Part shown: piece after piece, positions 6,401 to 22,808 of the stretch
Position numbering within the stretch: position 1 is the stretch's first letter
Layout of the letters: every line of letters begins with the position of its first letter
Virus record (IMG/VR): IMGVR_UViG_3300028571_000131
Location: 1 to 22,808 of that record
Reading direction: 5' to 3' (one strand)
DNA length: 22,808 bases
Source: a virus
The notes under the pieces: model-generated
The model's database searches: none
The model's input: the letters and a program-made list of their open reading frames with translations, nothing else
What the model was told of the DNA's origin: nothing
Program-made: the position numbers and the translations under genes

Positions 6401-7685
6401 GATTAGTTAATCTTTCATTTAGCAAACTTACAGTATATGTTGTAGAAAAACCAATTTTTGGAGAACCATATACATTGTCTAATTTTGCTATATTTCCTAT
6501 CCTGATTGGAAGATTTGTATTTTCTTTTAATTTTGTTGTTCTTGGTTTTAATATATCAATAGAAGAAGTAGAAATTTTATCTACTTCAAATCCTCTTATA
6601 TACGATTTTCCCGGAGAAACTTGAAGAACGTATATATTATCAGACGGAGTATTATCATTTTGAGTTAATTGATTTTCTAAATATATACCTCTATTTGATA
6701 TTCTGTCATTTAAAGATTCTCTTACGTCAATTGCAAATGGTTTTATGTAATAATCTCCAGATTCTTCATAAGTTCTTCTTGCTAATTCATCTTTAAATAC
6801 ATTAAAATCTGTTTTATTTACAAATTTTTGAAGTACACCATTTTCTACTCTAATGAGTTCTATAAAATCTTGATCATTTTTGTCAGTTAATAATTTTTTA
6901 TAAAGAGTAGCAGAAATTTTAAATCGATCTGCTCCTGGTGCAGATTCATTAGAAAATCCTTTTGCATTATCATATAAATCTGAATTTATTGAAGATGCAT
7001 TTATTATTTCCTCAGAAATCTGAAGACCTATTCTGTAACTAGGTGTATTTGTATACTGATCAAGAATTATGGTTTCTTTTAATACTTTAACAAAATAACC
7101 TCTAATAAAATATATTCCCTCACTAATTGATGCTGATGATCCAATTTTTGACGCATTAGTAGTAATACATCTAGCAAATGAACTATTAGCAAAAATACTA
7201 GATAACGAATAGTCAATATCAGACAATGTAATTAAATTTTCTCCATCTTGAAAAGTTTTTACGATTCCATCTGTTCCTGATGCAGTATATTTAACATAAA
7301 TTGTATCAAAATTATCCACAGATTCATTTGATGTAATAAAATTAACGACATTAGCAGTAACGCCGGACAATTCTCCTTTAATTTCAATTTGATTGTCAGA
7401 AAGAACTTTTAAATATTCTTTTACTGGAATATTTAAAAAATTAGAATCAATTCTTACGGCAAAATATCTATCATCATAAAATGTTCCACCAGGAATTACG
7501 ACAGAACCTTCCTTAAAAAAATATTGTCCAAATTTTTCAATTTGATTTTGTAAAATTGATTGTAGAGTTGTTATTTCTCTAGATTGAATAGGAATTCCTG
7601 GTTTAAATAAAACTTTTCTATAGTTTTTATTTTCGTCGAAATCGTCGAAATATGGAGAAATATTTAAATTGGTTTTTTGAGTCAT
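402..7685 (-). CDS. Giant DUF4815-type virion structural protein (baseplate/tail periphery)
   Basis: A 2427-residue protein. Its N-terminus (residues 8-45: SPYFDDFDENKNYRKVLF, then a Q-REITTLQSILQNQIEKFG stretch) is the signature of DUF4815 proteins of tailed phages. A 'SPGKSYIRGFEVD' motif near residue 355 fits the same family. Around residues 1660-1775 is a second conserved block (GWYDPLAQSFLV, then GVFITGGEVYFKTKD, then SKYLTYITRMGEEDL), followed by SLFKSQNSSTWDASQLEDLKF, which recurs in cyanophage tail proteins. A Gly-Tyr repeat (ITNGGTGYALGD) lies near residue 1940, an 'HGMH' segment near 2025, and a 'YLQINNEIISY' module near 2080. The C-terminus ends PPRIKNFRAIAL, as in related proteins. 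It starts 4 nt after the gp8 stop and overlaps the next gene by 8 nt. In T4 this position would hold gp9/gp10, so a role at the wedge periphery or fibre attachment is inferred, not shown. Confidence 0.9.
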   Translation of the reverse strand: MTQKTNLNISPYFDDFDENKNYRKVLFKPGIPIQSREITTLQSILQNQIEKFGQYFFKEGSVVIPGGTFYDDRYFAVRIDSNFLNIPVKEYLKVLSDNQIEIKGELSGVTANVVNFITSNESVDNFDTIYVKYTASGTDGIVKTFQDGENLITLSDIDYSLSSIFANSSFARCITTNASKIGSSASISEGIYFIRGYFVKVLKETIILDQYTNTPSYRIGLQISEEIINASSINSDLYDNAKGFSNESAPGADRFKISATLYKKLLTDKNDQDFIELIRVENGVLQKFVNKTDFNVFKDELARRTYEESGDYYIKPFAIDVRESLNDRISNRGIYLENQLTQNDNTPSDNIYVLQVSPGKSYIRGFEVDKISTSSIDILKPRTTKLKENTNLPIRIGNIAKLDNVYGSPKIGFSTTYTVSLLNERLTNRSIGSATTIGVAKVYDFNQKNIAGVTTTQYEIRLFDIQTYTSLSIGLGITAGADSHIRGQYSGSTGFLKESVSNQINLTVYDTKGEFQINEPLFINGINVGRNLTSIRDYDFSDIKSIFGISGISTFASDLVLDKGKKVFTEASQFTISAISAGVSTVTSPSVSDFSSLVKIGDIVKFSRPGFNTSTYNKVTTISKNYINITGISTVLGVCEGGAPNSNITVTDFDVVIPVLDKSNDPGYIVPLQNKFISSVNLLDSTYIIRKQILKNITGNNFTFYLSDLGDNDIYFEPFDESSYILTWEIGEKEVIRESQVTFSVDLRELTISGLSRTGNAILTCTVKRNKLSSKEKIIKRCENLIINKSKFNGSGIGSTTFNDGLTYSSVYGTRVQDEEISLNVPDIYRVLAIFESNNSSDPILPSIVVSLQSSSFTNNIIIGEQFIGNTSGAIARVVDIIGESQLSFVNENEKTFEINESIALKTSGIVATISSIVSGDRNILQNYSLDNGHRLEFVDYGRIIRKKNISDPTKKLRIVFDYYLNNEIVGNVESVNSYNSLNYSTEIPFIIGNRASDYIDFRPRVSAYSTNSIISPFSFFSRNFNLSSSETVVSNKTITIDYTYYLGRIDRLYLTKDGIFEIIKGEPSENPKTPIPNDEGFEVAVISMKPYVINATSDVLIKMLPHKRYTMKDIGSIENRIKNLEEYTTLSLLETDTKNLSIKDPNTGLDKFKSGFFVDNFRNHNSHNLTGESYFDIDPITSECRPRSSERNVSLIFETKSSLSDPTNADYRWIEDFESPNITRNGPGLTLAYTEVNFISQEFATRTENLNPFHIALFSGTIELTPTSDFWIEEVSLPTPDIVKIDSAYNAIADLLGIENRENGGMAASYWNSHETTWNGRDIIQEELISSNLVSSQTNSQQSGFVSGLGIRNTSTTIETLSNDYLQTFKTTGTDKTFGLELSSSADTVSLGSRVIGVDILYNCRSRNIEVVGKRLKPNTRYYVFLENTDMTEYCVPKLLPITMVRGSFSTSEIVKTSRSPQSIGTPQISFRVAQSNHKFGPFNSPTETYSIDPYTSTLLTSSYSGNSKTINIDTADLALPIVSSNIGYVKKGTVLCNQFGTAEAIVNDLSLISDEKGNLIFSLHIPDPKIASNPKFTTGLNTIRVTTSSTNANQLDSGDSSAETIYNATGYAQNNQEQTLSIKTPEIERKQIGSDQPITRITQDLDENRIETRTTTTDTGWYDPLAQSFLVERDKYQDGVFITGGEVYFKTKDEKIPVTVQIRTMRDGTPTTTILPFGQTEIDPKDINLSQDGSSPTQFSFSTPVYLQSGYEYSLVLVSPTSKYLTYITRMGEEDLILKSISNRQPYLGSLFKSQNSSTWDASQLEDLKFKLFKAKFVTNTPSSFSMYNQELPIGKILKNNPSIAYSKRQYVSIASTTTVFVQGNTITQSTSSGNIFGSGGPVGLGTTSLSLVSSGIGITNGSYSGIGFTSLTGFGNSCTANITVSSGTVTQFNITNGGTGYALGDLLIANKLGNTGTGVRAVVGIVSQTNFLIIDDVNDNIVAGIALTYYNSSGSSILISAPTSVNDDSIRDGYTMLFDHKNHGMHSSSNKVKIENFASDISPVLLSQSLTNSSTIITVSNSGIFTSFEGSPVGAGNTGYLQINNEIISYNNVSGNDITISNRAIDFSLNANHPSNSFVYKYEFNSISLRKINKDHNIDSREKTFNNYYIKLDDISKTFSSTKFGGGNNLQVSQNIPFEVIDPRITIITPTGTNISSRIKTTSGTSISGNESSFTDKGYENVSLNKLNYLDDPRIVASKINEYNLLNNQKSFALELTLSTNNEDVSPLIDLNTANIILISNLVDDKVDDFTIDSRVNIPGFDPNSAIYETKKISLEFSSNSLHVQFDGHREENSDIRAMYKLYRNDNSDFQQVYLAFNGDGSSDKVVNSNTGINNFSEYKFTANDLPQFNGFMIKIIMTSTNQATPPRIKNFRAIALRSFASDE
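7407..7438. repeat. Perfect 12-bp inverted repeat inside the DUF4815 gene
   Basis: Arms 7407-7418 (ttttaaatattc) and 7427-7438 (gaatatttaaaa) are exact reverse complements around an 8-nt loop. It lies in the N-terminal coding region, about residues 83-93 (LNIPVKEYLK). It is AT-rich, so it is one of the weaker members of the set seen in this window. Confidence 0.8.
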
Positions 7686-7689
7686 TTTT

Positions 7690-9255
7690 TTAAAATTCTA
7701 CTACGATTTTTAGTTCTTCTTTTTGTGATGAAGATCTTGTAATTGGTGCTCTATTATCAATATAAATTATTTCACCTGAATATTTTTTTATATCCGGAGT
7801 AGAAACTCCTGAAGTAAATGTTTGACCCAAATCGATTATTTTTCCTCCAATTTGAATATTATTTGTATTAAAATTAGTATCAACAATTAACGGAGAACCT
7901 TGTACTTCTGCACAATTAATCGTTACTCCGGCTCCAACGAATTTAAAAAGTCTGTAGCTATGAGAACTAAATGTAGAAAGACCAACTGGTTGATAATATT
8001 TTAAAACACCAGTATTTGGATTCCAAGATGCAACATAACCAACAGCGGTAGAACCAACACCAACGGTTTGAGTAATTTTAGCATTTAATGGATAATTGGT
8101 ATCTGAGGTATTTCCTGCACCTATTGGTTTTAATTTCAATGCATCAAGACCAGTGGCTGTAGAAGTATTTATCAATTCATTTTGACTTCCAAATATTACA
8201 GGATTTTTTAAAATTCCTATACGAGAAAAATTATTACCAATAATATAATCAGGATCGGAATCGTACTTAGAATATACCATTACTCTATATGCCCCAAGTT
8301 CTCGGTACACATCGTATCCGTGCCCTTGTTTTGGTGGAATAATAACTTCAATAATTCCACCAGATCCTGCAGTTATTTCTGGAGATCCACCAAATCCAAT
8401 ACCAAAATTTACAAATGCTCTAGTATATCCAAATCCACCATCAGTAACTGTAATTGTATCTATTTCCCCTCCGGTGATTGTAATAGATACCAATCCTCCA
8501 GTTCCATCTCCAAGAATAGGAATATTAATAATAGTTCCAGTTGTTTCACTATTTGCAGTTATATAACCAGATCCTCTATTTTTAACTATTGCAGTTTGTA
8601 ATTTACCATCGACTGAAGCGTTTTTTATTGTTTCTGTATTTATGTCTCCCCAGTTTTTCGGCAAAGGCATAAAATTTTCTGTTGCAAATTGTATAATATC
8701 TGATGGAGGTACAGTATAAAGATATTTCCAAAGATATCCATCAGACCCATCTCCCACCGATTGTGGATTAATATCTACAAAGTTTGGTTCAAATAATGAT
8801 TTTTGTCCTTTTGGGTTTTCTGGATTTGAACCGTTATTTAAACAAATATAAACTTTATATTCCGAATTTAAAATATAGAATCTGGAATCATATAATGTCT
8901 TAGAGTCTGTTTGTGGTGCTCCATTATCGATGTCGTAATTATTCCTGTACATATCATAAGTAATACCCAGTTCCCAGTCAATTCTTGGAATTACTCTAGA
9001 AATATCATTAGATGTTATTTTTTTAAGAAATAACATACTATCGTAATATAAATTTTCTTGTTGAAATGAATCCTTTGGTTCTGGAGGATCTGAAGACCAA
9101 TTAGGATCCCCATAGTTTTCAATAGTTATATTAGTTGGATTGGGATGAGATAAGAATGTATAATATTGATTTGTAGTAGTTCCGATCCCAACAAAACTTT
9201 TAATAAAAGTTTCCGCATTTAATATTCTAAATTGGTCAGTAATTATTGCTGGCAT
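7690..9255 (-). CDS. gp8: gp8-like baseplate wedge protein
   Basis: A 521-residue protein starting MPAIITDQFRILNAETF. It continues with a PPEPKDSFQQENLYYDSMLF segment and 'SRVIPRIDWELGITYDMYR' (about residues 85-107). This N-terminal pattern is the one annotated as baseplate wedge subunit gp8 in T4-like cyanophages. The order gp25-gp6-giant-gp8 also matches T4 6-7-8. T4 gp8 has 334 residues. The extra length here includes a Gly-rich beta-repeat insert at about residues 215-310 (NRGSGYI, VTDGGFGYTRAF, GGSPEITAGSGG), a module also seen in the two giant neighbours. The C-terminus (IIYIDNRAPITRSSSQKEELKIVVEF) contains a 'IdNR.pi.R...Q.E..k.v..F' pattern, common in wedge proteins of this group. 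A perfect late promoter box is 16 nt upstream and no Shine-Dalgarno is visible, so the transcript may be almost leaderless. Identity is based on motif memory and position. Confidence 0.82.
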   Translation of the reverse strand: MPAIITDQFRILNAETFIKSFVGIGTTTNQYYTFLSHPNPTNITIENYGDPNWSSDPPEPKDSFQQENLYYDSMLFLKKITSNDISRVIPRIDWELGITYDMYRNNYDIDNGAPQTDSKTLYDSRFYILNSEYKVYICLNNGSNPENPKGQKSLFEPNFVDINPQSVGDGSDGYLWKYLYTVPPSDIIQFATENFMPLPKNWGDINTETIKNASVDGKLQTAIVKNRGSGYITANSETTGTIINIPILGDGTGGLVSITITGGEIDTITVTDGGFGYTRAFVNFGIGFGGSPEITAGSGGIIEVIIPPKQGHGYDVYRELGAYRVMVYSKYDSDPDYIIGNNFSRIGILKNPVIFGSQNELINTSTATGLDALKLKPIGAGNTSDTNYPLNAKITQTVGVGSTAVGYVASWNPNTGVLKYYQPVGLSTFSSHSYRLFKFVGAGVTINCAEVQGSPLIVDTNFNTNNIQIGGKIIDLGQTFTSGVSTPDIKKYSGEIIYIDNRAPITRSSSQKEELKIVVEF

Positions 9256-9270
9256 AATATTTTTTTTAAC

Positions 9271-9278
9271 TATTTATA
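9271..9278 (-). promoter_or_regulatory. T4-type late promoter box TATAAATA before gp8
   Basis: There is an exact TATAAATA on the minus strand within the 29-nt gap between the giant gene and gp8. The gap is the only sizeable break between gp25 and the 74-residue gene, which supports function. With the T4 spacing, transcription would start near 9265, leaving about 10 nt before the gp8 ATG. Confidence 0.7.
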
Positions 9279-9284
9279 CTTAAA

Positions 9285-12200
9285 TTAGTAAGATAATCTT
9301 AATGGTAAAATTCTAGAGACATGTGCAGAAGTTTCTATTCCTATAACACCATTTTGATTATTAAATTGAAAAGATTTCGAATTTAAAGATCTTGAAATAT
9401 TAATAGAACCCCAAGTATATGTTCCATAATTATTTAAACTAGTTGAAATAAAATTTGATCCAGTGTTTATTCCAGATATCGAAAAAACATTAGAATATAC
9501 ACGAAGTGTGGATGTACCAATAGAAACAACATGGTTTGCATAATATATATTATCTATAAAACTATTTCCAATAGAAACTACATCAATTGAATTATTTTTA
9601 ATTGATGTAGTTCCATTTCCAATAGTAGTATTTTCGATAACAAAATAGTCTCCTGTAGAAATTCCAGAACGGGTTACTTTTTGGGCAGAAGAAATATTTT
9701 TATCTAATGGAGGATCTGTAGAAATATTTGGATGTGGAATAATATCAAAAGAAATTGATGGTGTTGTGGTTCCGATACCAACAGAACTTGTTCCAATTCC
9801 TACAATTAATCCATAGTCTCCATTATAAGACACTTTTTTAATTTTTTCTGTAATTGCGGTAGTTCCTATTCCAACAATAATAATATCATTTAAAGTTTGA
9901 GATAAATCATCAATTGTATTAAAAAATGGAAAAGTATTTTTTACATACATTTTCGTATCTGTCGAAGATAATGATACAATTATATTTGTAGTTGGATTTA
10001 TGATAGGTTCTAAATAATTTCTTTCTTTTGATATTTTTTCTCCATCGATAATAATATCCGATTTTTGTTTTGACCAAACAATTGGTCGGAGAAATGATTT
10101 GTCAGTAATTATTCCAATTCCACTATATGTTTGAGTTTCTAATGTATCTGCAGCAATTAATTCGTAAACTATTCTTTCTTCTTGAGATGGAATATTATCT
10201 TTTTTTTGTAATCTAATTCTATCTCCTGGTTTAATTGTTTCATCTATGTCTATTTCAAGATAATCTGATTCGGAACCAGTATAAAAATAAATTTTAAATT
10301 TACTTCCTGCCTTTGGTGCTTCTAAAAACTTTAATCTTGTCCCACTTGTAAATTGATAATCAATATTTGGTTTTTGTAAAACATTATTAATAAATATTAA
10401 AAGATTATTTGCTAATAAAATCCCAGAACCCTCTTTGGCAACAATGCTGTAATATTCTTTATTTACTATAGTTCTTGTTAATAAAAACGATTTTCTAACT
10501 CCATTAAAAAGATTACTAAAATCATCAAGTTCCAAAAGTTGTCCCAAAGTCCAACCAGAAAATTTACTTTGATATCTATTTTTAATTGTAATGTTGAATG
10601 CTGAAGTGCCTATTCCAACTTTATATGGAATTTGGGTCAATGTTAATACATCTCCAATTGAATATCCATATCCTCTATTTTCTAAATTAAATGAAATTAT
10701 ACTACCACCTGTCCCTACTACAACGTTTATTTTTGCACCAGTTCCAGTTCCTCCACTTAAAGTTAGATTGGTGTAGGGTGCTGGTTCATCTATAATGACT
10801 ATTGGAGGACTTGAAGTTGTATATCCACTACCAGCATTTGAAATACCAAATGAAGTTACTATCCCATTAGTAACTAATGAAATAATGGATGCGCCAATTC
10901 CAATACCTAAAGTATCTGCAATTGATACTTTAGGTGGAAATCTATATCCAGATCCACCAGTTGATAATCCTATAGACTGTATAGTTCCTCCAGAAGACAC
11001 TACAGCATATCCGAATGCTCTATTTGGAGGTTGGTATCCACTTCCAAGGCCAGTAAAAAATTCATTTATAACTCCACCTCTTGGTAGATCTTCAAGATAA
11101 GATCCAGTAAAATTAATTGATTGTCCGGTTCCTACTATTTCATAATCAGACTTCAAAATAGATCCAACATCGCCATAAAATGGTTTTTGGAAAATATTAT
11201 TAACAAGAATAATACCAAAACTAGATGTAATGCCGCTAATGGTTTGATTGTTATTTTTTAAATTAAATTCACTGGTCTGACTATTAAAATTTTCTGATAT
11301 ATCATCAATTATATAATTTGTACTATAATCCAATCGATAAAAAACTCTTCCCGAAAATGTAGATCTTGTAGTTAGTTCTCCGATTCCAGTTGGACCGTAT
11401 GGAGGGTCCGAAAAATATATAACTCCATCTTTTATCAAATAATCACCAGAAAGAACATTAATTGTTGCTCCAACTGTATGTGCAGAAGATACCGTCCCCA
11501 TCTGCCCTCTAATAATATTGAGAGAATTTGTAGATCCAATACCTACTAAAGATACTTTTATTATTTCATTTTCAATTTTAATTAAAGATTTTCCTTGTAT
11601 TTTTGATATATCCGAAAGATATATTACTGTAGTTCCTATTCCTACTGATGAAGCAAGAGAAACTATTATATCTTTTCTAGATACAGGACTTTGTATAATA
11701 TTGTCAATAGAAATTATGCATCTGGTAGTAGCAAGTTCGCTTTCTACAGATAAAGTATGAACAGTTCCCACTCCAGCAGATGAAAATGTAATTGCAATTC
11801 CCGCAATCGCTTCAGTTTTTCCTATAGCTAGTTTAATTAAATCTTTTGTAATTTTAATTGCATATATTGAAGATGGAAGAATATCAGTATTACCAATTCC
11901 AATAACGTTCATAGTTACAATTCCAATTGGAGTTCCTCCATTTGATGAATATATTAAGTTTTCTCCTGTATTAAACTCGTGGTCATTTATACTAATGTTA
12001 GATAAAGGTGTTGTTATTTTAGAAGATTCGAATTTTTTATTAAAAACCGTATTTCCGGAAGAAGTTAGTATAAATGAAGTTATTCCAATTATTCCTCCAC
12101 CAACAGTAGTCGTAACTCCGGTAAATTGAGGACTTATATCATCAAGTAATAAAACTTTATTACTAATAGATTCGTTGTAGTCAGTAATAACTTTAGAATC

Positions 12201-15200: not shown

Positions 15201-18200
15201 ATTTGTTCCAAGAACAGAAAATTTCAAATTATTATTTATTATTTCTGTCGTTGCAATAGAAATAATATTTTTACCCAAAATCTCACTTACGGCACAATTA
15301 ATAGAATTTTGATTTGAAAAATTTAAAATGTCACCGACTTTATATAAACTTCCGGGATTTATTACATTTATGGATGAAATGTCCGAAAGTTTAGTTAATT
15401 TTACTTTTACATTTGCATTTGAATTTAAAGAATCCATTAGAAATGGATAATTCCTATGAGATTCTTTTAGTCCTAGTGGAGTTATATTTCTTTTGTATTC
15501 TCCAGTGTTTATATATGAATCTGATTGATCAATTAATACATCATAGTTAAATAAATCTGAAGAATTATAATGTTTAATTGTTATGTATGGAAATGCTGGA
15601 TTGTTATTGTCGTCTAAAGTAGAAAAATAAGCATAAGTTCCATTAGGAAAATCTGAATTTATAAGATATCTTCCATTATATTCGTCCAAATCTCCATTTC
15701 CATTATAAAAATAATCATCTACAAAATAACCAAGAGGATATCCAGAAGGTCTTAGATTATTATCTAAATTTTGGTTAAGTTCATAACTAGATTTTAATCT
15801 TTTTATTCCTCCAGTTCCAGAAGAGTCTGGAATACTTTTAGCATTTCCACATGGTCCATAAATTGGATTTCCGTCATATGCCCAACCAATAATGGGAGAG
15901 TGGGATAATCCCTCCAATAATTCTTCAAATGTGTTTGGGTCCAAATTATCACCTAAAATTTTACGAATTTCTTTTGTAGCGTAAAATGAACAAATTTTAT
16001 TCTGTTTTAATTTTATTTCAGATGGAATCTGTAAAGTTCCCTTATAAATTTCTTCATTTAAAATATTTTTATATCTTTCTACTGAATTAATTTTCCATTC
16101 GTGTATATTTGAGTTAAATATTGCACCAGATCCTGCAGGAAGAACTCTAATATATGTTTCATTTTTGGTGTATCCTTTTCCGCTATTAATAATTTCTATT
16201 GAAGTTATTTTTCCATTTGAAACATTTGATTTTAATTTAGCATATTTTCCAGAACCGATAATTTCAAGTATTGGTGGAGTAGTGTATTCCAATCCAGAGT
16301 TTAGAATCCGAATATCAACTATTTCTCCATTTGTATTAATAATTGGAAAAAGATCTCCATTTATTCCAGTTTTTAGTGAAATTGATGGTTCTTTTATATA
16401 ATTGATAATATCCGTTACGCCATATCCAATACCTCCGTTACTTATGAATATATTTTCTATTTTTCCTCTAGATACTGCATACGCTGTGGCATCATAATAT
16501 GAGGGCCTTATAGTATCCCCAATACCAGTATTCCCTAAAATATTAACTTTTATTTCGGGGTAATTGAAAGTATGTGTTCCTGCTCCAATACTTTTTAAAT
16601 TTTCATAAATTTTGTTGTTAAAATTATTATCCGAAATACTAGATGCAGATCCGGCATTACTTAATTTGAATTTATTCGGATCAATAACAAATACATTGTA
16701 ATATGATGAGGTGGAAAGTCCCAAAATTTCAGTATCACTATTAGAATATGTTACTAAGTCCTTATTCTTGAAATTATGATTTTTTGCATAAATGTAATTA
16801 TCATACGTGTTAATACCTACAAATGTTTTATATATATCCTCTCGATTTATTGGTGGATAAGGTTGTGCATTAATTACTATCTTATTATTTGAATATAATG
16901 ATCCTTGATTATTGATAACAATTTTATCAATAATTTTTCTATTTCGGTTTGAAGTAAAGGTATGTGTATTATTTCCAAATAATACAAAATCTATTAATTC
17001 TGTTTTTTTAATTGCTCTTTCCTTTGTCGATGCAATAGAAAATGAAGTATTATCTATTTTTGCAACATAATAAATTGCACCATTTGATAATCTAGAAGTA
17101 GAAAATCCCACATTGGTACTTCCGATCCCAATTGCAACTCCGTTCGAAGTGTATATTATTTCTTCTCCATCTAAAAATTTGTGATCATAATCTAGAATAA
17201 TTTTATTAAGAAAAAGATTGACTTTTAAATCAGAAAATGATATAGAGTGCCTAAATGATTTAAGCGTTGCTGAGCACTCTGCTCCAATTCCATTACCGCC
17301 AGAAATAGTAACAGATGGTATATTTGTATAATCAAATCCCGGAGATGTTAAAATTATTTCAGAAATATTTCCCTGAATGTGCGCATATGCTTCTGCTCCA
17401 CTTCCCGTACTATCTACTATGGAAACATTTGGCGGATTTGTAATATCATAATTATTTCCATTATTTAATATATTAATTTTTTCCAATTGACCGTAAAATG
17501 CAGAATCAGTATGAATTGGAGAATGCAATTCAATTCCATTAACTCCAACTCCTATTTGACCAGTAATATTAATATTATTTTTTGAATTTTTTGGTGTTTT
17601 TAGTATTCTTCTAAAATTATTTTGATTAATAAGAGATTTATTAAATAAATTCGATGGAGAAATTATATGAGAATCGTTACCAGATCCATTAAAAAATACA
17701 AAAGAGTTATTAGATAAATTTGATTTGTTTAATGCTAATTTTATATTATCATTATTTATTTTTTTTATATAATAAAACCCACTACTGATTCCGGTAATTC
17801 CACTAGAATCAGTTAAAGAATTATAATAAATTTTATCTCCTGTTATGAAGTTATGCTCATTGATGCTAATTGTACTAGAAGATGCACTAGATGATGTAAA
17901 TATTTTAGATCTATTTGTGGTTTCTATTGAAGAATATGATGGAAATCCAGAGAATGCAATATAAGTATTTTGGTCTTTATCGATAAATGAATTCTGAATA
18001 TCTGCAAGTAAAAAATTTAATTTGAGATTTTCATTTACGTATTTTAAATTTTTCTTAATAGTATATTCGCCAAATGAATTCAGTTGACCGCTAAAAATTT
18101 TAAATTTATTATTATCAAGTATTTCAGTTACTTTAACATTAGAAATTACAACAATATTGGTCTTTTTGTCGATTATATCAATATTATCTTCTTTATGTAA

Positions 18201-19580
18201 AAAATGATAATTTTTTGTTGTAATTGTGTTAGTATTTGAATCTACCGTAAGAGTATCTACATATGTTACATTATTATGAAACCAAGTATTAAATTTCTTA
18301 TCTAATAGGGAAACTTTTTCTCCAAGATATTTGACTCCAAAGGAATCATCTGCATTAAAATATTTAGTATCAGATGTCCCTGTAGAAACGTTGGATATAG
18401 ATCCAACAACTCTCATTTGGCAGATAATATTCGTATTATTATTTTCATATCCGTAAACAAATTCGTCATTTATAATTTCTGTATTTGAAGATATTGATGT
18501 TGTTAATCCAGAGCAACCAAAAAACTGATTATGGGATTTTGATTGATAAGATGCCTTCTGGTAATTTTTATTATTAGATAAGTAATAAAAATTACCAGAA
18601 GTCGGAAATCCAAGAGTAGAATCCACAGTAACTACTTGTGGACTTGTTGGTTCAATTACTCTTGTTTTATTGTTAATATGAAACCTATTATCAATAGTGT
18701 CTTTAGAAAAACTTATTTTATAATATCTTTTATTCGCCAAAAATACTTCTTCAACATTTGATACAGTTCCGTTTGCAGTTGGTAAAATAAAAGAATTTTG
18801 ATATATTGTAGTATCTTTTAAATTAATTGGATTACCAAAAATAGATTCGACTATCATATTATCAAATACTTTCCATTCTGCATCTGATGCAACAATTGTA
18901 TTATCGAAAGGTTTTAATATTTCTACATTTTTTCCATATAAAATTTTAAATAATATTTTTAACGATGCATCAGTTCCTTTAGAACTATAAAAATCCCTTG
19001 CTCTACCTAAAATATTTTCAATTGATAATTTTGGCGTAAAATTTCTATTTTCAAATCCAGGAATAAAATTATACTTATATTTTTGAAAAAATTCTAATAA
19101 AAATAAAAAACTTAAATTATATACATTCGAATTTGGTGCATGAATATTTGCTTCAGTTTCTGTAAAAGTTAAATATTTCGAATTTTCAAAAGATTCTATT
19201 TCGGAAATTCCACTAAATCCTCGAACACAACCAGTAAAAGTATTTGTGGTCAATCCAGTATATGTAATAATTTCATCATCTATCTTTAAAAGTCCATACG
19301 TATTAGGAAATCCTATAGTACTATTGACTAAAATTGTTTCATCAAATGATAAAATTTCAGAAACAGTTTTTATTGGAAAAGAAGCAACATTTACTGAAGA
19401 ATATGATGAAATATTTTTATATGATGGAATATTTTCACAAAGATTTATATTTCCGTAATCATGTTCTTCGGAAATATAATATTGTTTTAGAAATTCCAAA
19501 AATAATGGATTTTCGTTACCAATAAAATCTGGTATTTGACTTTCTAAAATATTTGAAATTTTAATTTTTTTATTAGTCAT
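9285..19580 (-). CDS. Giant 3431-residue modular baseplate/tail structural protein with YHYH domain
   Basis: One uninterrupted frame of 3431 codons, starting 2 nt after the gp6 stop. It occupies the T4 gene 7 position, but T4 gp7 is about 1030 residues and I see no clear gp7 signature. It is built from recurring beta-type modules. Gly-Tyr repeats (pattern 'I..I.NgGsgYt..P.v.I', e.g. IEIINSGKGYT) occur near residues 700-775, 1040-1155, 2015-2118 and 2860-2985. 'H.f.tGD.v.Y ... YyikkI....ikla' modules are near 570, 792, 927, 1637, 1792 and 2528. An 'IDDEIITYTG...CVRG' module is near 82-125. 'NNVLQKP'-type segments are near 2620, 2790 and 3060. A YHYH-type domain (HSPIIGWAYDGNPIYGPCG, then FPNGTYAYF) spans about 1195-1335. 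The C-terminus (YGTYTWGSI, then VSRILPLRLSY) resembles the ends of giant cyanophage structural proteins. No signal peptide or membrane segment is apparent. It probably forms the outer wedge or tail-side decoration; the function is inferred. Confidence 0.88.
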   Translation of the reverse strand: MTNKKIKISNILESQIPDFIGNENPLFLEFLKQYYISEEHDYGNINLCENIPSYKNISSYSSVNVASFPIKTVSEILSFDETILVNSTIGFPNTYGLLKIDDEIITYTGLTTNTFTGCVRGFSGISEIESFENSKYLTFTETEANIHAPNSNVYNLSFLFLLEFFQKYKYNFIPGFENRNFTPKLSIENILGRARDFYSSKGTDASLKILFKILYGKNVEILKPFDNTIVASDAEWKVFDNMIVESIFGNPINLKDTTIYQNSFILPTANGTVSNVEEVFLANKRYYKISFSKDTIDNRFHINNKTRVIEPTSPQVVTVDSTLGFPTSGNFYYLSNNKNYQKASYQSKSHNQFFGCSGLTTSISSNTEIINDEFVYGYENNNTNIICQMRVVGSISNVSTGTSDTKYFNADDSFGVKYLGEKVSLLDKKFNTWFHNNVTYVDTLTVDSNTNTITTKNYHFLHKEDNIDIIDKKTNIVVISNVKVTEILDNNKFKIFSGQLNSFGEYTIKKNLKYVNENLKLNFLLADIQNSFIDKDQNTYIAFSGFPSYSSIETTNRSKIFTSSSASSSTISINEHNFITGDKIYYNSLTDSSGITGISSGFYYIKKINNDNIKLALNKSNLSNNSFVFFNGSGNDSHIISPSNLFNKSLINQNNFRRILKTPKNSKNNINITGQIGVGVNGIELHSPIHTDSAFYGQLEKINILNNGNNYDITNPPNVSIVDSTGSGAEAYAHIQGNISEIILTSPGFDYTNIPSVTISGGNGIGAECSATLKSFRHSISFSDLKVNLFLNKIILDYDHKFLDGEEIIYTSNGVAIGIGSTNVGFSTSRLSNGAIYYVAKIDNTSFSIASTKERAIKKTELIDFVLFGNNTHTFTSNRNRKIIDKIVINNQGSLYSNNKIVINAQPYPPINREDIYKTFVGINTYDNYIYAKNHNFKNKDLVTYSNSDTEILGLSTSSYYNVFVIDPNKFKLSNAGSASSISDNNFNNKIYENLKSIGAGTHTFNYPEIKVNILGNTGIGDTIRPSYYDATAYAVSRGKIENIFISNGGIGYGVTDIINYIKEPSISLKTGINGDLFPIINTNGEIVDIRILNSGLEYTTPPILEIIGSGKYAKLKSNVSNGKITSIEIINSGKGYTKNETYIRVLPAGSGAIFNSNIHEWKINSVERYKNILNEEIYKGTLQIPSEIKLKQNKICSFYATKEIRKILGDNLDPNTFEELLEGLSHSPIIGWAYDGNPIYGPCGNAKSIPDSSGTGGIKRLKSSYELNQNLDNNLRPSGYPLGYFVDDYFYNGNGDLDEYNGRYLINSDFPNGTYAYFSTLDDNNNPAFPYITIKHYNSSDLFNYDVLIDQSDSYINTGEYKRNITPLGLKESHRNYPFLMDSLNSNANVKVKLTKLSDISSINVINPGSLYKVGDILNFSNQNSINCAVSEILGKNIISIATTEIINNNLKFSVLGTNVTAFSTSPLNFIDGDIVEISGISSSLYKNIEGIRIIGITSFVSSVSSAIGSTLATGITTFISISEPPSNKNIKINDIIGIGSEKILIINIDEYNNKYRVIRSYDNSVGSSHTFGKLVTKFPKEFTFNVNEKLKNKNKENSKLYYFDSTKSVGIGTTYSNVIVGTSGSDDIRKSIPPRSIYLPNHQFKTGDLVSYVAIGGTIFASSNSTLSPTFSLSDVGVFYCVKLSDEFIGLSTSKIGFSTSYIYFNSVSGNNHKLETIVDEITGQVKKTNVNITLNEPHNLIKNDTIKLNIISNKFDYYNFKFNSVIKKLVTNQVSFASTAVGVGTSNSNISIINHNYQTGDLVVYTATNPITPLENNGIYHIIKINNNTIKIAKNNFDVIKFPYENIGITSFGSGTHELAKINPKLTFYRGNNVSIAVSDTSLSGYDINFYTDSDFKSRYESKLIKKNGVFGDANSSTKINISIKDSLPEKLYYRIEGNDLKFTTTYPSSVNTEVPNYSSIEIVDSKINGVHKISGIGSTTFSFTLVGSAETTFYNISGLSTAYYSTNSNKETGGIHSIKIINSGQNISKLPTVSSIETISGNYATLSIESDNIGKILDVDITNQGLEFTNNKTLAPKVDSYIILRLFDILTLKNINIDNGGANYTSAPKTIAIGNPNILTKTSTQGNSVSKVQIISNDSGLSNNLRIIPTINSNGVSVSDAVSEFGLNTLFLRSPITGFSKFPFSVNDKIYVENVKITNNADGYNSSDYGYRYFVVTGINTTGGSESVTYSISGIGSTGGSFDPTNIFGRVIKSTDLAIYSPEFEKVKFIEGEKITQINGNAYGFVAKNGWDPISQTLKIINPQGIFEKNKIIVGNIGNYKSSIENIYEFDFDFEVNSISRKSIDWENNKGKLSFNDQRIHDNDYYQRFSYSIKSEIDYDTWKESVNSILHTSGFKNFSDLQILNGIGNTVKVNSDVSQVDLNVEIFSESSVYDRFYYDLASEDTDDNSLSKIIKFDSKVITDYNESISNKVLLLDDISPQFTGVTTTVGGGIIGITSFILTSSGNTVFNKKFESSKITTPLSNISINDHEFNTGENLIYSSNGGTPIGIVTMNVIGIGNTDILPSSIYAIKITKDLIKLAIGKTEAIAGIAITFSSAGVGTVHTLSVESELATTRCIISIDNIIQSPVSRKDIIVSLASSVGIGTTVIYLSDISKIQGKSLIKIENEIIKVSLVGIGSTNSLNIIRGQMGTVSSAHTVGATINVLSGDYLIKDGVIYFSDPPYGPTGIGELTTRSTFSGRVFYRLDYSTNYIIDDISENFNSQTSEFNLKNNNQTISGITSSFGIILVNNIFQKPFYGDVGSILKSDYEIVGTGQSINFTGSYLEDLPRGGVINEFFTGLGSGYQPPNRAFGYAVVSSGGTIQSIGLSTGGSGYRFPPKVSIADTLGIGIGASIISLVTNGIVTSFGISNAGSGYTTSSPPIVIIDEPAPYTNLTLSGGTGTGAKINVVVGTGGSIISFNLENRGYGYSIGDVLTLTQIPYKVGIGTSAFNITIKNRYQSKFSGWTLGQLLELDDFSNLFNGVRKSFLLTRTIVNKEYYSIVAKEGSGILLANNLLIFINNVLQKPNIDYQFTSGTRLKFLEAPKAGSKFKIYFYTGSESDYLEIDIDETIKPGDRIRLQKKDNIPSQEERIVYELIAADTLETQTYSGIGIITDKSFLRPIVWSKQKSDIIIDGEKISKERNYLEPIINPTTNIIVSLSSTDTKMYVKNTFPFFNTIDDLSQTLNDIIIVGIGTTAITEKIKKVSYNGDYGLIVGIGTSSVGIGTTTPSISFDIIPHPNISTDPPLDKNISSAQKVTRSGISTGDYFVIENTTIGNGTTSIKNNSIDVVSIGNSFIDNIYYANHVVSIGTSTLRVYSNVFSISGINTGSNFISTSLNNYGTYTWGSINISRSLNSKSFQFNNQNGVIGIETSAHVSRILPLRLSY
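9576..9612. repeat. Perfect 13-bp inverted repeat near the 3' end of the giant gene
   Basis: Arms 9576-9588 (aactacatcaatt) and 9600-9612 (aattgatgtagtt) pair exactly around an 11-nt loop. It is coding, encoding part of TTSIKNNSIDVVSIG near residues 3323-3335. It is not near a stop codon and has no T-tract, so it is not a terminator. Confidence 0.85.
10905..10935. repeat. Perfect 12-bp inverted repeat in a Gly-Tyr module of the giant gene
   Basis: Arms 10905-10916 (acctaaagtatc) and 10924-10935 (gatactttaggt) pair exactly around a 7-nt loop. It is coding (PKVSIADTLGIG, near residues 2882-2892), inside one of the Gly-Tyr beta-repeats. Confidence 0.85.
14910..14948. repeat. Perfect 13-bp inverted repeat in the giant gene
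   Basis: Arms 14910-14922 (atacttattatta) and 14936-14948 (taataataagtat) pair exactly. The 13-nt loop itself holds the palindrome CATCGATG. A second palindrome, GGAGTTAT-c-ATAACTCC, lies just before it at 14884-14900. The region codes for about residues 1545-1566 (ILIINIDEYNNKYRVIRSYD). Confidence 0.8.
18555..18601. repeat. Perfect 19-bp inverted repeat, 9-nt loop, in the giant gene
   Basis: Arms 18555-18573 and 18583-18601 are exact reverse complements over 19 bases (cttctggtaatttttatta and its complement), with loop ttagataag. The element is fully coding (TSGNFYYLSNNKNYQK, about residues 327-342), within a 'GFPTSG' type module. It lies far inside the gene, so it is neither a terminator nor an intergenic regulatory hairpin. 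Confidence 0.92.
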
Positions 19581-19582
19581 TT

Positions 19583-21469
19583 TTATCTTATATATTTTTT
19601 ATTATCAATAAAACTTGAAGGTGGATTGTAGAGTGTTCCAGATTTGTTTGATCCGGAAGAAATAATATCCTCAATAAGGAACAAATTACTATTTCCTGTA
19701 GTATCTAGAACAATATAAAGATTTTCTTTTGAGATTATATCATTCGATTCTGGAATGACTTCTATTTCAATTTTATTCAATAAACTTGTTGACGTTATCA
19801 TTATTGGGTAGATGATTATTTCTCCTTTTTCGTAATTTACTTTTCCTGCATTATTGTTTATAAAATTGGGTTTTCCTTTATCTAAGGTAAAAAATCTAAT
19901 CTTACCAATTAATTCGCTAGAGTTATCAGGAATATCTGTTATGTATATATCTTCACTTATTCCATCAATTTTAAAAGAAGATGATCGAATATTAAATCCC
20001 TCACTATCTGCATGAAATTTATTTCCATAACATATTTCATAATTTGCAATAAAATTATAAGAAGGTAATAAATTTCTTCTCATTTTTAAAGTGGTTATAT
20101 TAGAAGTAATTCCTTTATCTACATTATCAATTATGGAAGTAAGTTTACTATATTTTAGCCTTCCCCCAAATGAGTTAATATCTGAAGATTTGGAGTAAGA
20201 TTCAATAGTCAATTTAATTCTTGAATCAAGGTCTTCTTTATTTGAAATAAAACTTGGATCATAAGATACTGTAGAATTATATTCTACATACAAATATTTT
20301 AAATCTATAAATTCCTGTTTGATTCCGGCAACCGTGTATTTTTTAAGATTATTTTTTATGAAATTTTTTGTAGTGTCCGATAAAAAATCACCATTTTTTG
20401 GTTTAATTGTAATAAAAACTTTCCCATATTGCGGCGGATCTAATTCTTCTCCACCATAAGCACTTACCGAGTCTATATTTCCATATAAAAAAGGAATTAG
20501 ACTAATATAATCAGTCGCAGTTACTGCTCTATATTGCGATGCATAAATTCTAGGAGCTAAGTATTTAACATTATCTACACTTTCGATATCGTCTCCATTT
20601 TCCGAAGATTCTGTAGTAGTTAAAAGAGATATTCCAGAAGTAATTGATTTATTTTTTCCACTTTGTAGGTATGATAAATTACCAGAAAAAGTAAAATTAG
20701 TTGCTCCATTTCCCTCTATTCCATTAGTTACAATATATGATACTATAATTTCGCTTCCATTTTCTGGTTTTTTCCCAAAAATATCATCACCAAAAATAAT
20801 TTGATATTTTTCATCATTAATTTCCTGAACTAAAAATAATTTTGAGGATGGACTGACATTAAAAATGTTAGAATATAATGAATAGTTATCTGTAGTAGTA
20901 GATTTTACGGAAACGCGAATCGTTGAAGTATCTATATTTGAATTTGGTAATATATATTTTGCATCTGATTGCGAATAATCAACTATAAACGATTTTTTTA
21001 AATAATTTCCTTCATAAATTTCAATGTTAGAGAATGAAGCAATTCCATTATTATTTGGAGTAACTATAATATCATCTGGAATTGAAAAAATATAATTACC
21101 TCCCTCTACAGAACCTAAAGTTACTACTCCAGCGTGTAACTTAACAGATTTTGCAGGTAAGTTATTTAAATTTACATCAAAATTAATTTTTGCAATTGCT
21201 GCTTTTTTTGATCTTGGAACGTATCCAATATTTCTTGCTAATGAAACTACATTTTCTCTCAAAGTAGCACTATCAATGAACGACTCATTGATAGCCATAT
21301 TAGTATTATATGCAGTTATATATGAATTATATGCAAGAGTATCAATTAAAATAGAAAAATTAGATCCCTCAAAATCAAAATCAGTAAAATTGGAATTTGT
21401 CCTCAGATAGTCTTTAATCTGAGTACGTATGTCTTTAAAATCTAAATTAGTAAATTGATTGAATGACAT
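19583..21469 (-). CDS. gp6: Baseplate wedge protein gp6 (baseplate J-like)
   Basis: A 628-residue protein, close to T4 gp6 (about 660). The N-terminus (FKDIRTQIKDYLRTNSNFTD, then GSNFSILIDTLAYNSY and NMAINESFIDSATLRENVVSLAR) is the standard gp6/baseplate-J start. Around residues 218-255 is the core motif IIFGDDIFGKKPENGSEIIV followed by GIEGNGA. At about residues 300-325 is the conserved PRIYASQYRAVTATDYISLI. The C-terminal third has a KVNYEKGEIIIYPI segment typical of phage gp6 tails. In T4, gp6 forms the dimeric wedge core that joins neighbouring wedges with gp53, gp25 and gp7. The start ATG shares its A with the TAA stop of gp25 (TAATG), so the two are likely translationally coupled. The downstream giant gene begins after 2 nt. 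All signature parts are intact. Confidence 0.95.
   Translation of the reverse strand: MSFNQFTNLDFKDIRTQIKDYLRTNSNFTDFDFEGSNFSILIDTLAYNSYITAYNTNMAINESFIDSATLRENVVSLARNIGYVPRSKKAAIAKINFDVNLNNLPAKSVKLHAGVVTLGSVEGGNYIFSIPDDIIVTPNNNGIASFSNIEIYEGNYLKKSFIVDYSQSDAKYILPNSNIDTSTIRVSVKSTTTDNYSLYSNIFNVSPSSKLFLVQEINDEKYQIIFGDDIFGKKPENGSEIIVSYIVTNGIEGNGATNFTFSGNLSYLQSGKNKSITSGISLLTTTESSENGDDIESVDNVKYLAPRIYASQYRAVTATDYISLIPFLYGNIDSVSAYGGEELDPPQYGKVFITIKPKNGDFLSDTTKNFIKNNLKKYTVAGIKQEFIDLKYLYVEYNSTVSYDPSFISNKEDLDSRIKLTIESYSKSSDINSFGGRLKYSKLTSIIDNVDKGITSNITTLKMRRNLLPSYNFIANYEICYGNKFHADSEGFNIRSSSFKIDGISEDIYITDIPDNSSELIGKIRFFTLDKGKPNFINNNAGKVNYEKGEIIIYPIMITSTSLLNKIEIEVIPESNDIISKENLYIVLDTTGNSNLFLIEDIISSGSNKSGTLYNPPSSFIDNKKYIR
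21270..21294. repeat. Perfect 10-bp inverted repeat with 5-nt loop in gp6
   Basis: Arms ctatcaatga (21270-21279) and tcattgatag (21285-21294) flank the loop acgac. It codes for the conserved AINESFIDSA motif near residues 59-67. At this length a chance match is plausible. Confidence 0.6.
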
Positions 21470-21870
21470 TATATTCTAGTTGGTTGTAAAATAAATTCTA
21501 TGTTTTGAATAGGAAAAGGCAATCCAACAATATCATATGAAATTTTTATATTTAAATTATTCGAATCTTCTATAAATTCAAGTAAAATATTTTTTAAATT
21601 AATTCTTGGTTCAAAATTTTTAATTAATGTGATGATTTCTTCTTCTAAAAAAGAAAATAAATCAGAATCAGAAAGTTCAAACAAAGAATTTTCGACTGAT
21701 GTTCCCAATAAATCATTAAAAAATCTTTCATTTAAACGAGTCCTAACAAGATTTATAACAGATTTTTTAATAGCATCTTCATTTTTTAAAATAATTAAAT
21801 CATTAGTAACTGGATGTTTCGTAAAAGATAAACTAATATCTTTAAAACTACGAGAAATTGTTACTGCCAT
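21469..21870 (-). CDS. gp25: Baseplate wedge protein gp25 (GPW/gp25 family)
   Basis: A 133-residue protein, matching the usual gp25 length (T4: 132). It contains the family core DISLSFTKHPVTNDLIILKN followed by EDAIKKSVINLVRTRLNERF (about residues 11-50). After these come the Gly-Thr-Ser segment and an FEPRINLKNI motif near residue 86, as in GPW/gp25 proteins. In T4, gp25 joins gp6 and gp53 in the wedge core and helps start tail sheath assembly. The ATG at 21870 gives a full family-like N-terminus (MAVTISRSFKDISLSF). It overlaps gp6 by one base. The leader of 35 nt is AT-rich with no clear Shine-Dalgarno, and a late-promoter-like box lies at 21898-21891. Confidence 0.95.
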   Translation of the reverse strand: MAVTISRSFKDISLSFTKHPVTNDLIILKNEDAIKKSVINLVRTRLNERFFNDLLGTSVENSLFELSDSDLFSFLEEEIITLIKNFEPRINLKNILLEFIEDSNNLNIKISYDIVGLPFPIQNIEFILQPTRI

Positions 21871-21890
21871 TTAAACTTTATTGTTTTATA

Positions 21891-21898
21891 TATCTATA
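21891..21898 (-). promoter_or_regulatory. Possible late promoter box TATAGATA before gp25
   Basis: The minus strand reads TATAGATA, one base off the T4 late consensus, about 20 nt before the gp25 ATG and inside the 35-nt gap. The position suits a promoter for the gp25-gp6-giant unit. The single mismatch and AT-rich setting make it tentative. Confidence 0.35.
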
Positions 21899-21905
21899 AT
21901 ACTTT

Positions 21906-22145
21906 TTACCAAGTTTTTCCATAATTTGGTTCCGTTCCATATTCCCAATCATCATAATCTTCATCATTACGAATTTTTTCATGAAGATCAGTTTGTTTTT
22001 TTAAATTATGATTGGGTGCCAAATCATGCATAATTTCTTGAATGATTCTTTTTGGTGGTTCTGTTTGATAATCCGTAATTAAATGCGTAGTTCCCCACAT
22101 TTGATGCATATATTCTTTGTCTCTATCAACTGGTAAATTAGACAT
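21906..22145 (-). CDS. Unrecognised 79-residue acidic protein
   Basis: A complete frame with a strong ribosome binding site (AGGAG, then five bases, then ATG), the best in the window. The product starts MSNLPVDRDKEYMHQMWGTT. It is rich in charged residues and has an acidic cluster (NDEDYDDWEYG) before the C-terminal EPNYGKTW. There is no signal peptide, membrane segment or zinc-binding Cys pattern. I do not recognise the family. It lies between speD and gp25 on the same strand, 64 nt after speD and 35 nt before gp25. It might belong to the structural block or to the small-gene cluster with speD. The real-gene call rests on the ribosome binding site, compact spacing and composition. A hairpin abuts its ribosome binding site. 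Confidence 0.8.
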   Translation of the reverse strand: MSNLPVDRDKEYMHQMWGTTHLITDYQTEPPKRIIQEIMHDLAPNHNLKKQTDLHEKIRNDEDYDDWEYGTEPNYGKTW

Positions 22146-22150
22146 TTTAA

Positions 22151-22173
22151 CTCCTGTTTTAAAAATAAAACAG
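22151..22173 (-). promoter_or_regulatory. Ribosome binding site joined to a hairpin, upstream of the 79-residue gene
   Basis: The AGGAG sequence is at 22155-22151. Directly upstream, CTGTTTTA (22173-22166) and TAAAACAG (22161-22154) form an 8-bp perfect stem with a 4-nt loop. The last bases of the stem overlap the first bases of the AGGAG. Further upstream, TGGAG and CTCCA (about 22201-22184) can form a 5-bp stem; its CTCC could instead pair with the ribosome binding site. Regulation is inferred only. Confidence 0.45.
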
Positions 22174-22209
22174 AACTTTTATGATGGAGGTTTCTATCTC
22201 CAAATATAT

Positions 22210-22536
22210 TTAACGATTTAATATTTTAAGATTATAATTATAAGAATTTAAATATTTAAGTATTTCCAGAGCAACTAATTTTGGATTTTCCTTTCCGCAA
22301 GTATAGATATCAATTGCAATACATCCTTCTTCTGGCCAAGTATGTGCTGAAAAATGACTTTCTGATAGTGCAATTACTATGGTAAGACCTTGTGGTTCAA
22401 ATTTGTGCGTAAAAATATTTAAAATATTCATTTTAGCACGAGAAATCCCTCTTTTAATTACTTCTAAAAGAGGGATTTCTTCATTTAACAAATTGTAATC
22501 TATATTATACACCTCTAATAAGAGATGATTTCCCAT
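22210..22536 (-). CDS. speD: S-adenosylmethionine decarboxylase proenzyme (SpeD)
   Basis: Makes decarboxylated S-adenosylmethionine, the aminopropyl donor for spermidine synthesis, using a self-made pyruvoyl group. The prokaryotic signature is intact: ALSESHFSAHTWPEEG followed by IDIYTCG. By comparison with the Thermotoga enzyme, self-cleavage occurs between Glu and Ser of 'SES|H' (Glu59-Ser60 counting from the ATG). The catalytic His (Ser+5) and Cys (Ser+20) are both present, and Thr takes the place of the Ser eight residues before the cleavage Ser. Length is 108 residues, slightly shorter than cellular forms (about 120-130). I chose ATG 22536, giving MGNHLLLEVYNID, which aligns with the usual 'GrHl..ElY' start. 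A TTG at 22551 would add only five residues and has no ribosome binding site. It is a known auxiliary metabolic gene of cyanophages. A GATAAATA box lies upstream, and a 16-bp perfect hairpin is embedded in the frame. Confidence 0.95.
   Translation of the reverse strand: MGNHLLLEVYNIDYNLLNEEIPLLEVIKRGISRAKMNILNIFTHKFEPQGLTIVIALSESHFSAHTWPEEGCIAIDIYTCGKENPKLVALEILKYLNSYNYNLKILNR
22441..22480. repeat. Perfect 16-bp inverted repeat, 8-nt loop, inside speD
   Basis: Arms agaaatccctctttta (22441-22456) and taaaagagggatttct (22465-22480) pair exactly around loop attacttc. It codes for EIPLLEVIKRGIS in the first third of SpeD. The adjacent stretch 22405-22439 can add a second stem (GTGC-g-TAAAA with TTTTA-GCAC), so the middle of the speD message should be strongly folded. 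Confidence 0.92.
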
Positions 22537-22571
22537 AGAAAAGTTATCCAATTGTTATAAGAATAAAAATT

Positions 22572-22579
22572 TATTTATC
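22572..22579 (-). promoter_or_regulatory. Probable late promoter box GATAAATA before speD
   Basis: The minus strand reads GATAAATA, matching the NATAAATA form of the late promoter described for T4-like cyanophages. It lies 35 nt before the speD ATG, in the 55-nt gap after the 44-residue gene. The gap is AT-rich, so a chance match is possible. Confidence 0.45.
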
Positions 22580-22591
22580 TTATTTTAAATA

Positions 22592-22726
22592 TTAACGTCC
22601 TTGTCCTCTATATTTTTTTCGAGCGGAATTTCGACTTGTTTTCGAATACTTTGTATTCTTTCCTTGTCCTTGAATTGTATTCTTTGGATTACTTTCAAGT
22701 TTTTGGTCTTTTTTATTCAGAGCCAT
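22592..22726 (-). CDS. Small basic protein, 44 residues, ending KKYRGQGR
   Basis: A short frame beginning with ATG 22726-22724, preceded by AAGGAG and an 11-nt AT spacer. The product begins MALNKKDQKLESNPKN, contains a TIQGQGKNTKYSKTSRNS segment and ends ARKKYRGQGR. It has many Lys and Arg and almost no hydrophobic residues, so it is probably disordered and nucleic-acid binding, or a minor virion or ribosome-associated protein. Short basic proteins with the same 'GQGKnTk.S.tSknA.KkYRGQG' arrangement are, as I recall, widespread and uncharacterised in T4-like cyanophages. The repeated GQG near the middle and the end is notable. It lies 55 nt upstream of speD on the same strand. An opposite-strand frame covers the same bases but lacks any support. 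Confidence 0.8.
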   Translation of the reverse strand: MALNKKDQKLESNPKNTIQGQGKNTKYSKTSRNSARKKYRGQGR

Positions 22727-22808
22727 TTTAATTTTTTCTCCTTTTGGTTCAAAAAACGGTTTTTGACGGGGTTTTTGCGTATTTTTTTATAAGATAGTTA
22801 TAAAACCT

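Follow-up and report, generated by a model that had tools for sequence, protein, structure and literature searches.

The window analysed here is the whole of the uncultivated-virus record IMGVR_UViG_3300028571_000131 (22,808 bases, GC 28%). Its minus-strand genes form a T4-like cyanophage baseplate module consisting of a DUF4815 protein, gp8, gp7, gp6, gp25, a small protein, and speD, and seven minus-strand frames have matches to known families. Among those with family matches are the DUF4815 gene (402-7685, 2427 aa), a gp7-like giant baseplate wedge gene (9285-19580, 3431 aa), a gp6-like baseplate wedge gene (19583-21469), and speD (22210-22551, with TTG at its 5′ end), which belongs to the S-adenosylmethionine decarboxylase family (PHROG 3125, PF02675). 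Residues 1215-1324 of the gp7-like protein form a YHYH domain (PF14240). The gene order is the same in the Synechococcus phage S-SRM01 (Kyanoviridae, Serangoonvirus), which comes from a reservoir in Singapore. Two contigs are especially close to the window: the sister contig L123, with 94.2% identity over 6481-21871, and L088, a separate contig with two differences over 16587-22066.

An original prediction, made by reading the sequence, reported six perfect inverted repeats with arms of 12-19 bp inside these genes. We recover all six at exactly those coordinates, with perfect arms. One lies in the DUF4815 gene (7407-7438), four in gp7 (9576-9612, 10905-10935, 14910-14948, and 18555-18601), and one in speD (22441-22480). 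We find that the speD repeat is a conserved hairpin with a smaller companion in the same gene, and that the other five are hardly kept in relatives. All six are within minus-strand genes and none overlaps a gene end, as had been noted; the further remark that none has a T-tract does not apply to 14910-14948, which is followed by a T run on the plus strand, antisense to the genes. Being inside genes, none fits an intrinsic terminator (a GC-rich stem and U-tract at a gene end). The repeats at 18555 and 22441 are not among the terminator-like sites of 18000-22808, and the other four were judged by eye. The window has no Rfam match above the gathering score.

Hairpins in speD and gp6

The speD repeat, here called HP2 (22441-22480, minus strand, codons 24-38, arms 16, loop 8), forms a conserved hairpin within the gene; its synonymous codons are fitted to arm pairing, and compensated changes occur between alleles. 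The arms are perfect over 15-16 bp, with differing sequences, in L089-L096 and the window, and there is a stem with a one-base bulge in L081-L088 and L097-L101. Among 22 sequences (11 distinct rows), both partners have changed in three of 15 pairs (C-G/G-C, U-A/C-G with U-G, and G-C/A-U). These give eight double-change cells, a number that 0 of 500 shuffles reach and that compares with none in slid registers (relatedness uncorrected). At column pair 21-42 the U-G form is present on the sense strand and the A-C form is absent. Among 41 sequences (28 distinct) there are 43 double-change cells, again reached by 0/500 shuffles, and the best slid register has 26.

Synonymous resampling gives z of -3.4 to -6.8 in 13/13 window-clade alleles scored, and z is variable (0.6 to -6.1) in 18 remoter alleles. 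A wider speD set has 121 gene copies (some contigs twice), 68 of them distinct, from 40 of 42 loci and the best 80 of 584 loci. Nineteen of the 68 distinct alleles have p<0.01, 29 have p<0.05, and 58 are stabler than the synonymous mean; after thinning to 32 alleles (<85% identity), eight have p<0.01 and 13 have p<0.05. Over codons 22-39, z is -4.1 to -4.7 on either strand in the window clade (11 alleles) and -0.8 to -1.3 in the 57 others. The stability signal of HP2 is strong only in one clade.

A second hairpin, HP1 (22510-22527, minus strand, codons 9-14, CAYCUY...GAGGUN), was absent from the original prediction and shows synonymous constraint on both arms. Codons 1-21 are structured both in the clade and in the 57 other alleles (z about -1.5 to -2.5 sense, -1.0 to -2.4 antisense), and the signal centres on HP1. 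Glu13 is GAG in 59/67 alleles compared with 69/551 other Glu codons (Fisher p 2e-37, relatedness ignored) and in 29/31 compared with 42/263 in the thinned set; of 11 Glu columns this one has by far the largest share of GAG, 0.88, and none of the rest exceeds 0.26. CAC makes up 0.74 of codons at His9 (0.16-0.23 in three other His columns, 0.70 in a fourth with n = 20), and CTC makes up 0.47 at Leu10 (next-highest Leu column 0.26). U-G pairing is common, in 17/68 and 27/68 alleles at two positions, the second of which is unpaired in 11/68. Ile10 is found in six alleles: five, with ATA as this codon, have GAA in place of GAG and form a palindrome in a shifted position, and L222 retains GAG. In a control set of cellular speD (72 motif matches, 80 loci), GAG is found at the HP1 Glu in 25/34 compared with 220/545 other Glu codons, a bias of the same sign as in the phages and weaker. 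Codons 9-14 of S-SRM01 speD fold as HP1; the folds of six other named cyanophages do not show this hairpin. HP1 is more widely kept than HP2.

In all 68 distinct alleles the first codon is TTG and the sixth ATG; the fifth encodes Ser, and each of the four TCN codons occurs there. This pattern suggests that translation starts at the TTG (22549-22551), not at the downstream ATG annotated in S-SRM01. HP1 and HP2 would act in the mRNA, most likely by setting speD translation or message stability at the 5′ end of the gene. The CAYCUY arm of HP1 has what we take to be a resemblance to the 3′ tail of 16S rRNA. It is conceivable, if rather unlikely, that in this group of cyanophages the conserved UUG, HP1 holding a Shine-Dalgarno-like GAGGU by CAYCUY, and HP2 make up a two-hairpin element at the start of speD whose local folding switches or throttles production of this polyamine enzyme, with polyamines themselves as a possible signal. 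Among the literature matches listed, from a search whose coverage excludes most subscription journals, the speD hairpins are not described.

The gp6 gene has a weaker inverted repeat (21270-21294, minus strand, arms 10, loop 5), also absent from the original prediction and retained in many relatives among the contigs of T4-like phages: 24 of 47 distinct homologues pair beyond synonymous expectation (z>1.64). On the sense strand, non-Watson-Crick pairs in 68 aligned segments (L088 and L123 included) are G-U at 1.38 per segment and A-C at 0.09, a difference partly due to the conserved NES-FID protein motif. Selected mRNA structure, which had been offered as one explanation for all the repeats, is supported for 21270 as well as for 22441, the latter by compensated pairs and synonymous tests; it does not extend to the five others.

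Several other features were seen around speD. After 22066, L088 has about 70 differences from the window in the next 520 bases (22067-22586), speD included. This break near 22067 is a sharp recombination boundary, with the speD allele swapped between near-identical phages. Upstream of speD, at 22592-22803, is a short minus-strand frame starting MALNKKDQ (by eye); 15 related contigs match this segment at 85-96% identity, and most of them reach only 72-79% at the window's speD region. Codons 67-81 of speD are another very stable 45-nt segment in some alleles (-19.9 kcal/mol in L102, L103, L105, L106, and L107; -18.2 in L112).

Number of repeats in the window and in related genomes

Counting perfect arms with loops of at most 15, the window has 13 repeats with arms of at least 10 bp, six of at least 12, and two of at least 14. 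For arms of at least 12, the codon shuffle has a mean of 0.60 and the shuffle that preserves junction dinucleotides (dicodon) 0.80 (300 shuffles each, maximum 3). A run of 1000 shuffles has a mean of 0.935 and a maximum of 5, so that six are reached in 0/1000. When swaps are confined to 60-codon blocks, a conservative null because more of the original order is retained, the mean is 2.13 and six are reached in 0/300. The window therefore exceeds codon-preserving expectation. The expectation of about 0.1 in the original prediction is 6-21 times too low, given nulls of 0.60-2.13, in part because some of these sites encode amino acids that favour pairing.

Shuffled repeats of at least 12 bp fall mostly at observed places, with 453 per 1000 shuffles in the 18550 bin and 245 in the 7400 bin. 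An arm of at least 12 bp with the same centre occurs at 7407 in 24.5% of 1000 synonymous shuffles and at 18555 in 45.3%; at the latter, arms of at least 19 occur in 0.2%. The protein sequence itself thus predisposes both sites. Six of the 13 repeats are in 3:3 codon register, a feature that was dropped as evidence because shuffled repeats of at least 12 bp arise mostly at a few places.

Excess is also found in relatives. A survey of 72 non-redundant loci (1.156 Mb), left from 181 after exclusion of L003, L123, and L088 and removal of redundant loci, has 96, 19, and 7 repeats inside open reading frames (arms of at least 10, 12, and 14) compared with 61.8, 6.35, and 0.85 expected. Local shuffles give 9.0 for the 19. 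The homologous speD repeat accounts for four of these 19 (L090, L093, L094, and L095), which leaves 15. L123 has three repeats of at least 12 compared with 0.6 expected, and the complete S-SRM01 genome, taken as five stretches, has 2 compared with 0.75 (at least 12) and 14 compared with 9.0 (at least 10). A two- to threefold excess is thus usual in the group, with the window at the high end.

Fate and origin of the five other repeats

The repeats at 7407, 9576, 10905, 14910, and 18555 are hardly kept in relatives of about 70% identity beyond synonymous expectation. For this test we counted Watson-Crick pairs in distinct ungapped homologous segments of at most 90% identity. The mean excess is 0.78 pairs at 7407, 0.44 at 9576, 0.69 at 10905, 0.05 at 14910, and 0.65 at 18555, compared with 1.52 at 22441, and homologues with z>1.64 number 0/18 at 9576, 0/7 at 18555, and 8/25 at 22441 (the other three sites are considered below). 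Retention in homologues, as expected of a selected mRNA hairpin, was not found at the five sites. Of the two outcomes that would have counted against the original prediction, one is absent, since codon shuffles do not yield six repeats; towards the other, the arms of five repeats are little conserved and S-SRM01, the one complete named relative examined, has a small excess.

In the 94% sister, the five as a set, which exceed synonymous shuffles, are largely retained. Arm bases differ from L123 at 6/138 positions (repeats of at least 12) and 13/262 (at least 10), close to the overall 892/15,391 (5.8%), and the arms are substituted at the background rate, without protection. All 13 arm changes break a pair and none is compensated, a comparison biased towards breakage since the repeats were selected in the window.

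The individual sites differ. The amino acids favour pairing at 7407-7438 (arms 12, loop 8; DUF4815 gene, codons 83-93). The repeat at 9576-9612 (arms 13, loop 11) is identical in L123 and lost in remoter relatives. At 10905-10935 (arms 12, loop 7) the arms are the same in L123 and the outcome is intermediate: pairing is partial in several relatives (at most 11/12), where 10-11 of 12 pairs form, some through changed pairs, because the PKV and TLG codons are inherently complementary. L123 breaks two pairs at 14910-14948 (arms 13, loop 13).

The repeat at 18555-18601 (arms 19, loop 9) is the best candidate for template switching. L123 has 14-bp perfect arms there and three differences from the window, all in the left arm; the right arm is retained in several relatives and the left is variable. 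In the left arm the outgroup L011 has CT like L123 and the window has TC (gaps nearby in the L011 alignment), so the window's 19-bp arms look derived. This site is also the strongest hit in a template test of clustered substitutions, in which two clusters between the window and L123, of 139 before filtering, have inverted templates of at least 11 (18555 and a weaker one at 16908). The repeat and its flanks are identical in L088, which makes an assembly artefact unlikely there; L088 is fully paired at 18555, 16908, 16965, 19445, 20777, and 21270.

Folding was compared between strands. In the window's gp7 the two strands fold better than expected to the same degree (sense z -3.6, antisense z -3.8). 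In 54 genes from 54 further loci the mean difference from shuffles per 50-nt window is -0.215 kcal/mol sense and -0.176 antisense; folding is below shuffled in 44/54 sense and 46/54 antisense, and sense is lower than antisense in 34/54 (p = 0.075). A smaller gene set has relatives' sense z below antisense z in most genes, most clearly in L012, which points to some RNA-level selection there. A wobble test found 19 G-T (15.1 expected) and 15 A-C (10.9 expected), with no preference for G-U. The window and L123 gave only two imperfect stems in this test, and the strand symmetry rests on gp7 folding and on the relatives. Near symmetry between strands and the lack of a G-U preference lead us to prefer a DNA-level origin, which they do not prove. 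Support for template switching as the source of the five is thin and comes mainly from 18555.

Interpretation and known systems

We lean, by a modest degree, towards a mixture in which a conserved pair of speD hairpins stands beside five non-functional repeats that arose by a DNA-level process or by chance. The five would be near-palindromes in AT-rich genes, two of them favoured by amino acids, which template switching (quasi-palindrome correction), some other process acting on the DNA, or chance may have perfected, and which may later decay.

A number of results weigh against this mixture. Some concern speD: the three HP2 pairs changed on both sides among 22 sequences are equalled by 23/500 shuffles and their further pair types by 416/500; among 41 sequences the seven pairs are reached by 220/500 and the pair types by 449/500; RNAalifold predicts no pair on the 41-sequence alignment; 49 of the 68 distinct alleles miss p<0.01; and at both HP1 and HP2 the antisense strand gives a signal of roughly the same strength as the sense strand. 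In addition, GAGGU could be kept as a Shine-Dalgarno-like motif, not for pairing, but the codon bias of both HP1 arms favours pairing over such a motif alone. Of the five, those where some homologues exceed z of 1.64 may be weakly conserved, namely 7407 (6/46), 10905 (2/14), and 14910 (3/25). Template switching, proposed originally and compatible with the apparently derived arm at 18555, has no group-wide enrichment of inverted templates over 11,951 substitution clusters in 77 pairwise alignments: templates of at least 10 nt accompany 35 of them (0.29%), whereas randomly chosen positions give 0.51%, and the figures for other kinds of copy are 0.58% (direct), 0.60% (reversed), and 0.13% (complemented).

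The strongest competitor, which we rate well below the mixture and rather unlikely, is that composition and chance suffice for five of the six in a fragment picked as extreme. The GC content of 28%, the two repeats favoured by amino acids, the 2.1 repeats expected from local shuffles, the merely two- to threefold excess in related loci (2 compared with 0.75 in S-SRM01), and the lack of a multi-substitution signature all agree with it; what it fails to explain is that six were reached in none of the 1000 gene-wide or 300 local shuffles, that a 19-bp arm at 18555 arose in 0.2% of shuffles, and that related loci also exceed expectation (19 compared with 6.35). That every one of the six is an mRNA hairpin under selection, perhaps as protection for very long late transcripts, is improbable. 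Such selection would account for the excess over codon shuffles, for genes of the group folding better than shuffles on average (44/54 sense), and for the retention at 22441 and 21270, but five of the six are hardly kept in relatives, their arms change at the background rate without compensation or wobble preference, and sense folding is hardly better than antisense (34/54, p = 0.075).

Two further explanations are highly improbable. One, suggested originally, is that the repeats serve as targets for a cruciform-cutting enzyme of the endonuclease VII (gp49) type, and S-SRM01 does have genes annotated as endonuclease VII. Nothing was found to bear the idea out: by eye the six have no evident common arm sequence or spacing, and the positions of five are hardly kept. 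Cruciform-cutting enzymes such as endonuclease VII recognise junctions, not sequence, which we also count against it. An assembly or amplification artefact would be in keeping with the source, a 22,808-base record of an uncultivated virus, but repeats are paired in the separate contig L088 and also in L123, and seven frames match known families.

On the mixture reading, coding palindromes are in general excess and mostly without meaning, and a single place stands apart with a retained hairpin. This reading also means that a long perfect repeat is by itself a poor guide to function, since the 10-bp repeat in gp6 is better kept than the 19-bp repeat in gp7. The speD pair offers a well-defined RNA element, open to experiment, within an auxiliary metabolic gene of many cyanophages.

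SpeD of phage S-PM2 is an active S-adenosylmethionine decarboxylase, and some phage homologues are arginine or ornithine decarboxylases (PMC9992855). Short inverted repeats are in excess in prokaryotic coding sequence, which that work attributes to template switching acting on imperfect palindromes to perfect them (Ladoukakis and Eyre-Walker 2008, via PMC4060949). Our window is like that system in having perfect inverted repeats above expectation within genes; it differs in that arms there are 6-9 bp and here 12-19, and the multi-substitution signature was not found group-wide here. PMC4060949 describes inverted repeats as over-represented in most prokaryotic phyla, offers both explanations, and calls coding regions generally normal in one passage and over-represented in another. 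The highest mean density of inverted repeats is reported for bacteria and viruses, mostly in intergenic regions (PMC13155455), and PMC8604942 is a further source of literature context. Nematomorph mitochondria also have perfect inverted repeats in protein-encoding genes (PMC6649704), but theirs reach up to 284 bp and both arms encode conserved regions, whereas ours are 12-19 bp and mostly unconserved. In RNA hairpins that template switching creates and maintains, a single event can produce or restore a perfect stem (PMC8794818), which fits 18555; those are in RNA genes, and here there is one candidate event in a protein gene.

Taken together the repeats are of an ordinary kind, if somewhat numerous, and the new item is the speD hairpin pair. 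Its closest likeness is the RNA structure of bacterial coding regions (Katz and Burge 2003, via PMC4060949), in which the choice among synonymous codons promotes local pairing, as it does in speD. The bacterial tendency extends across the genome, whereas the speD hairpins are discrete elements found again and again at a single place within one gene family.

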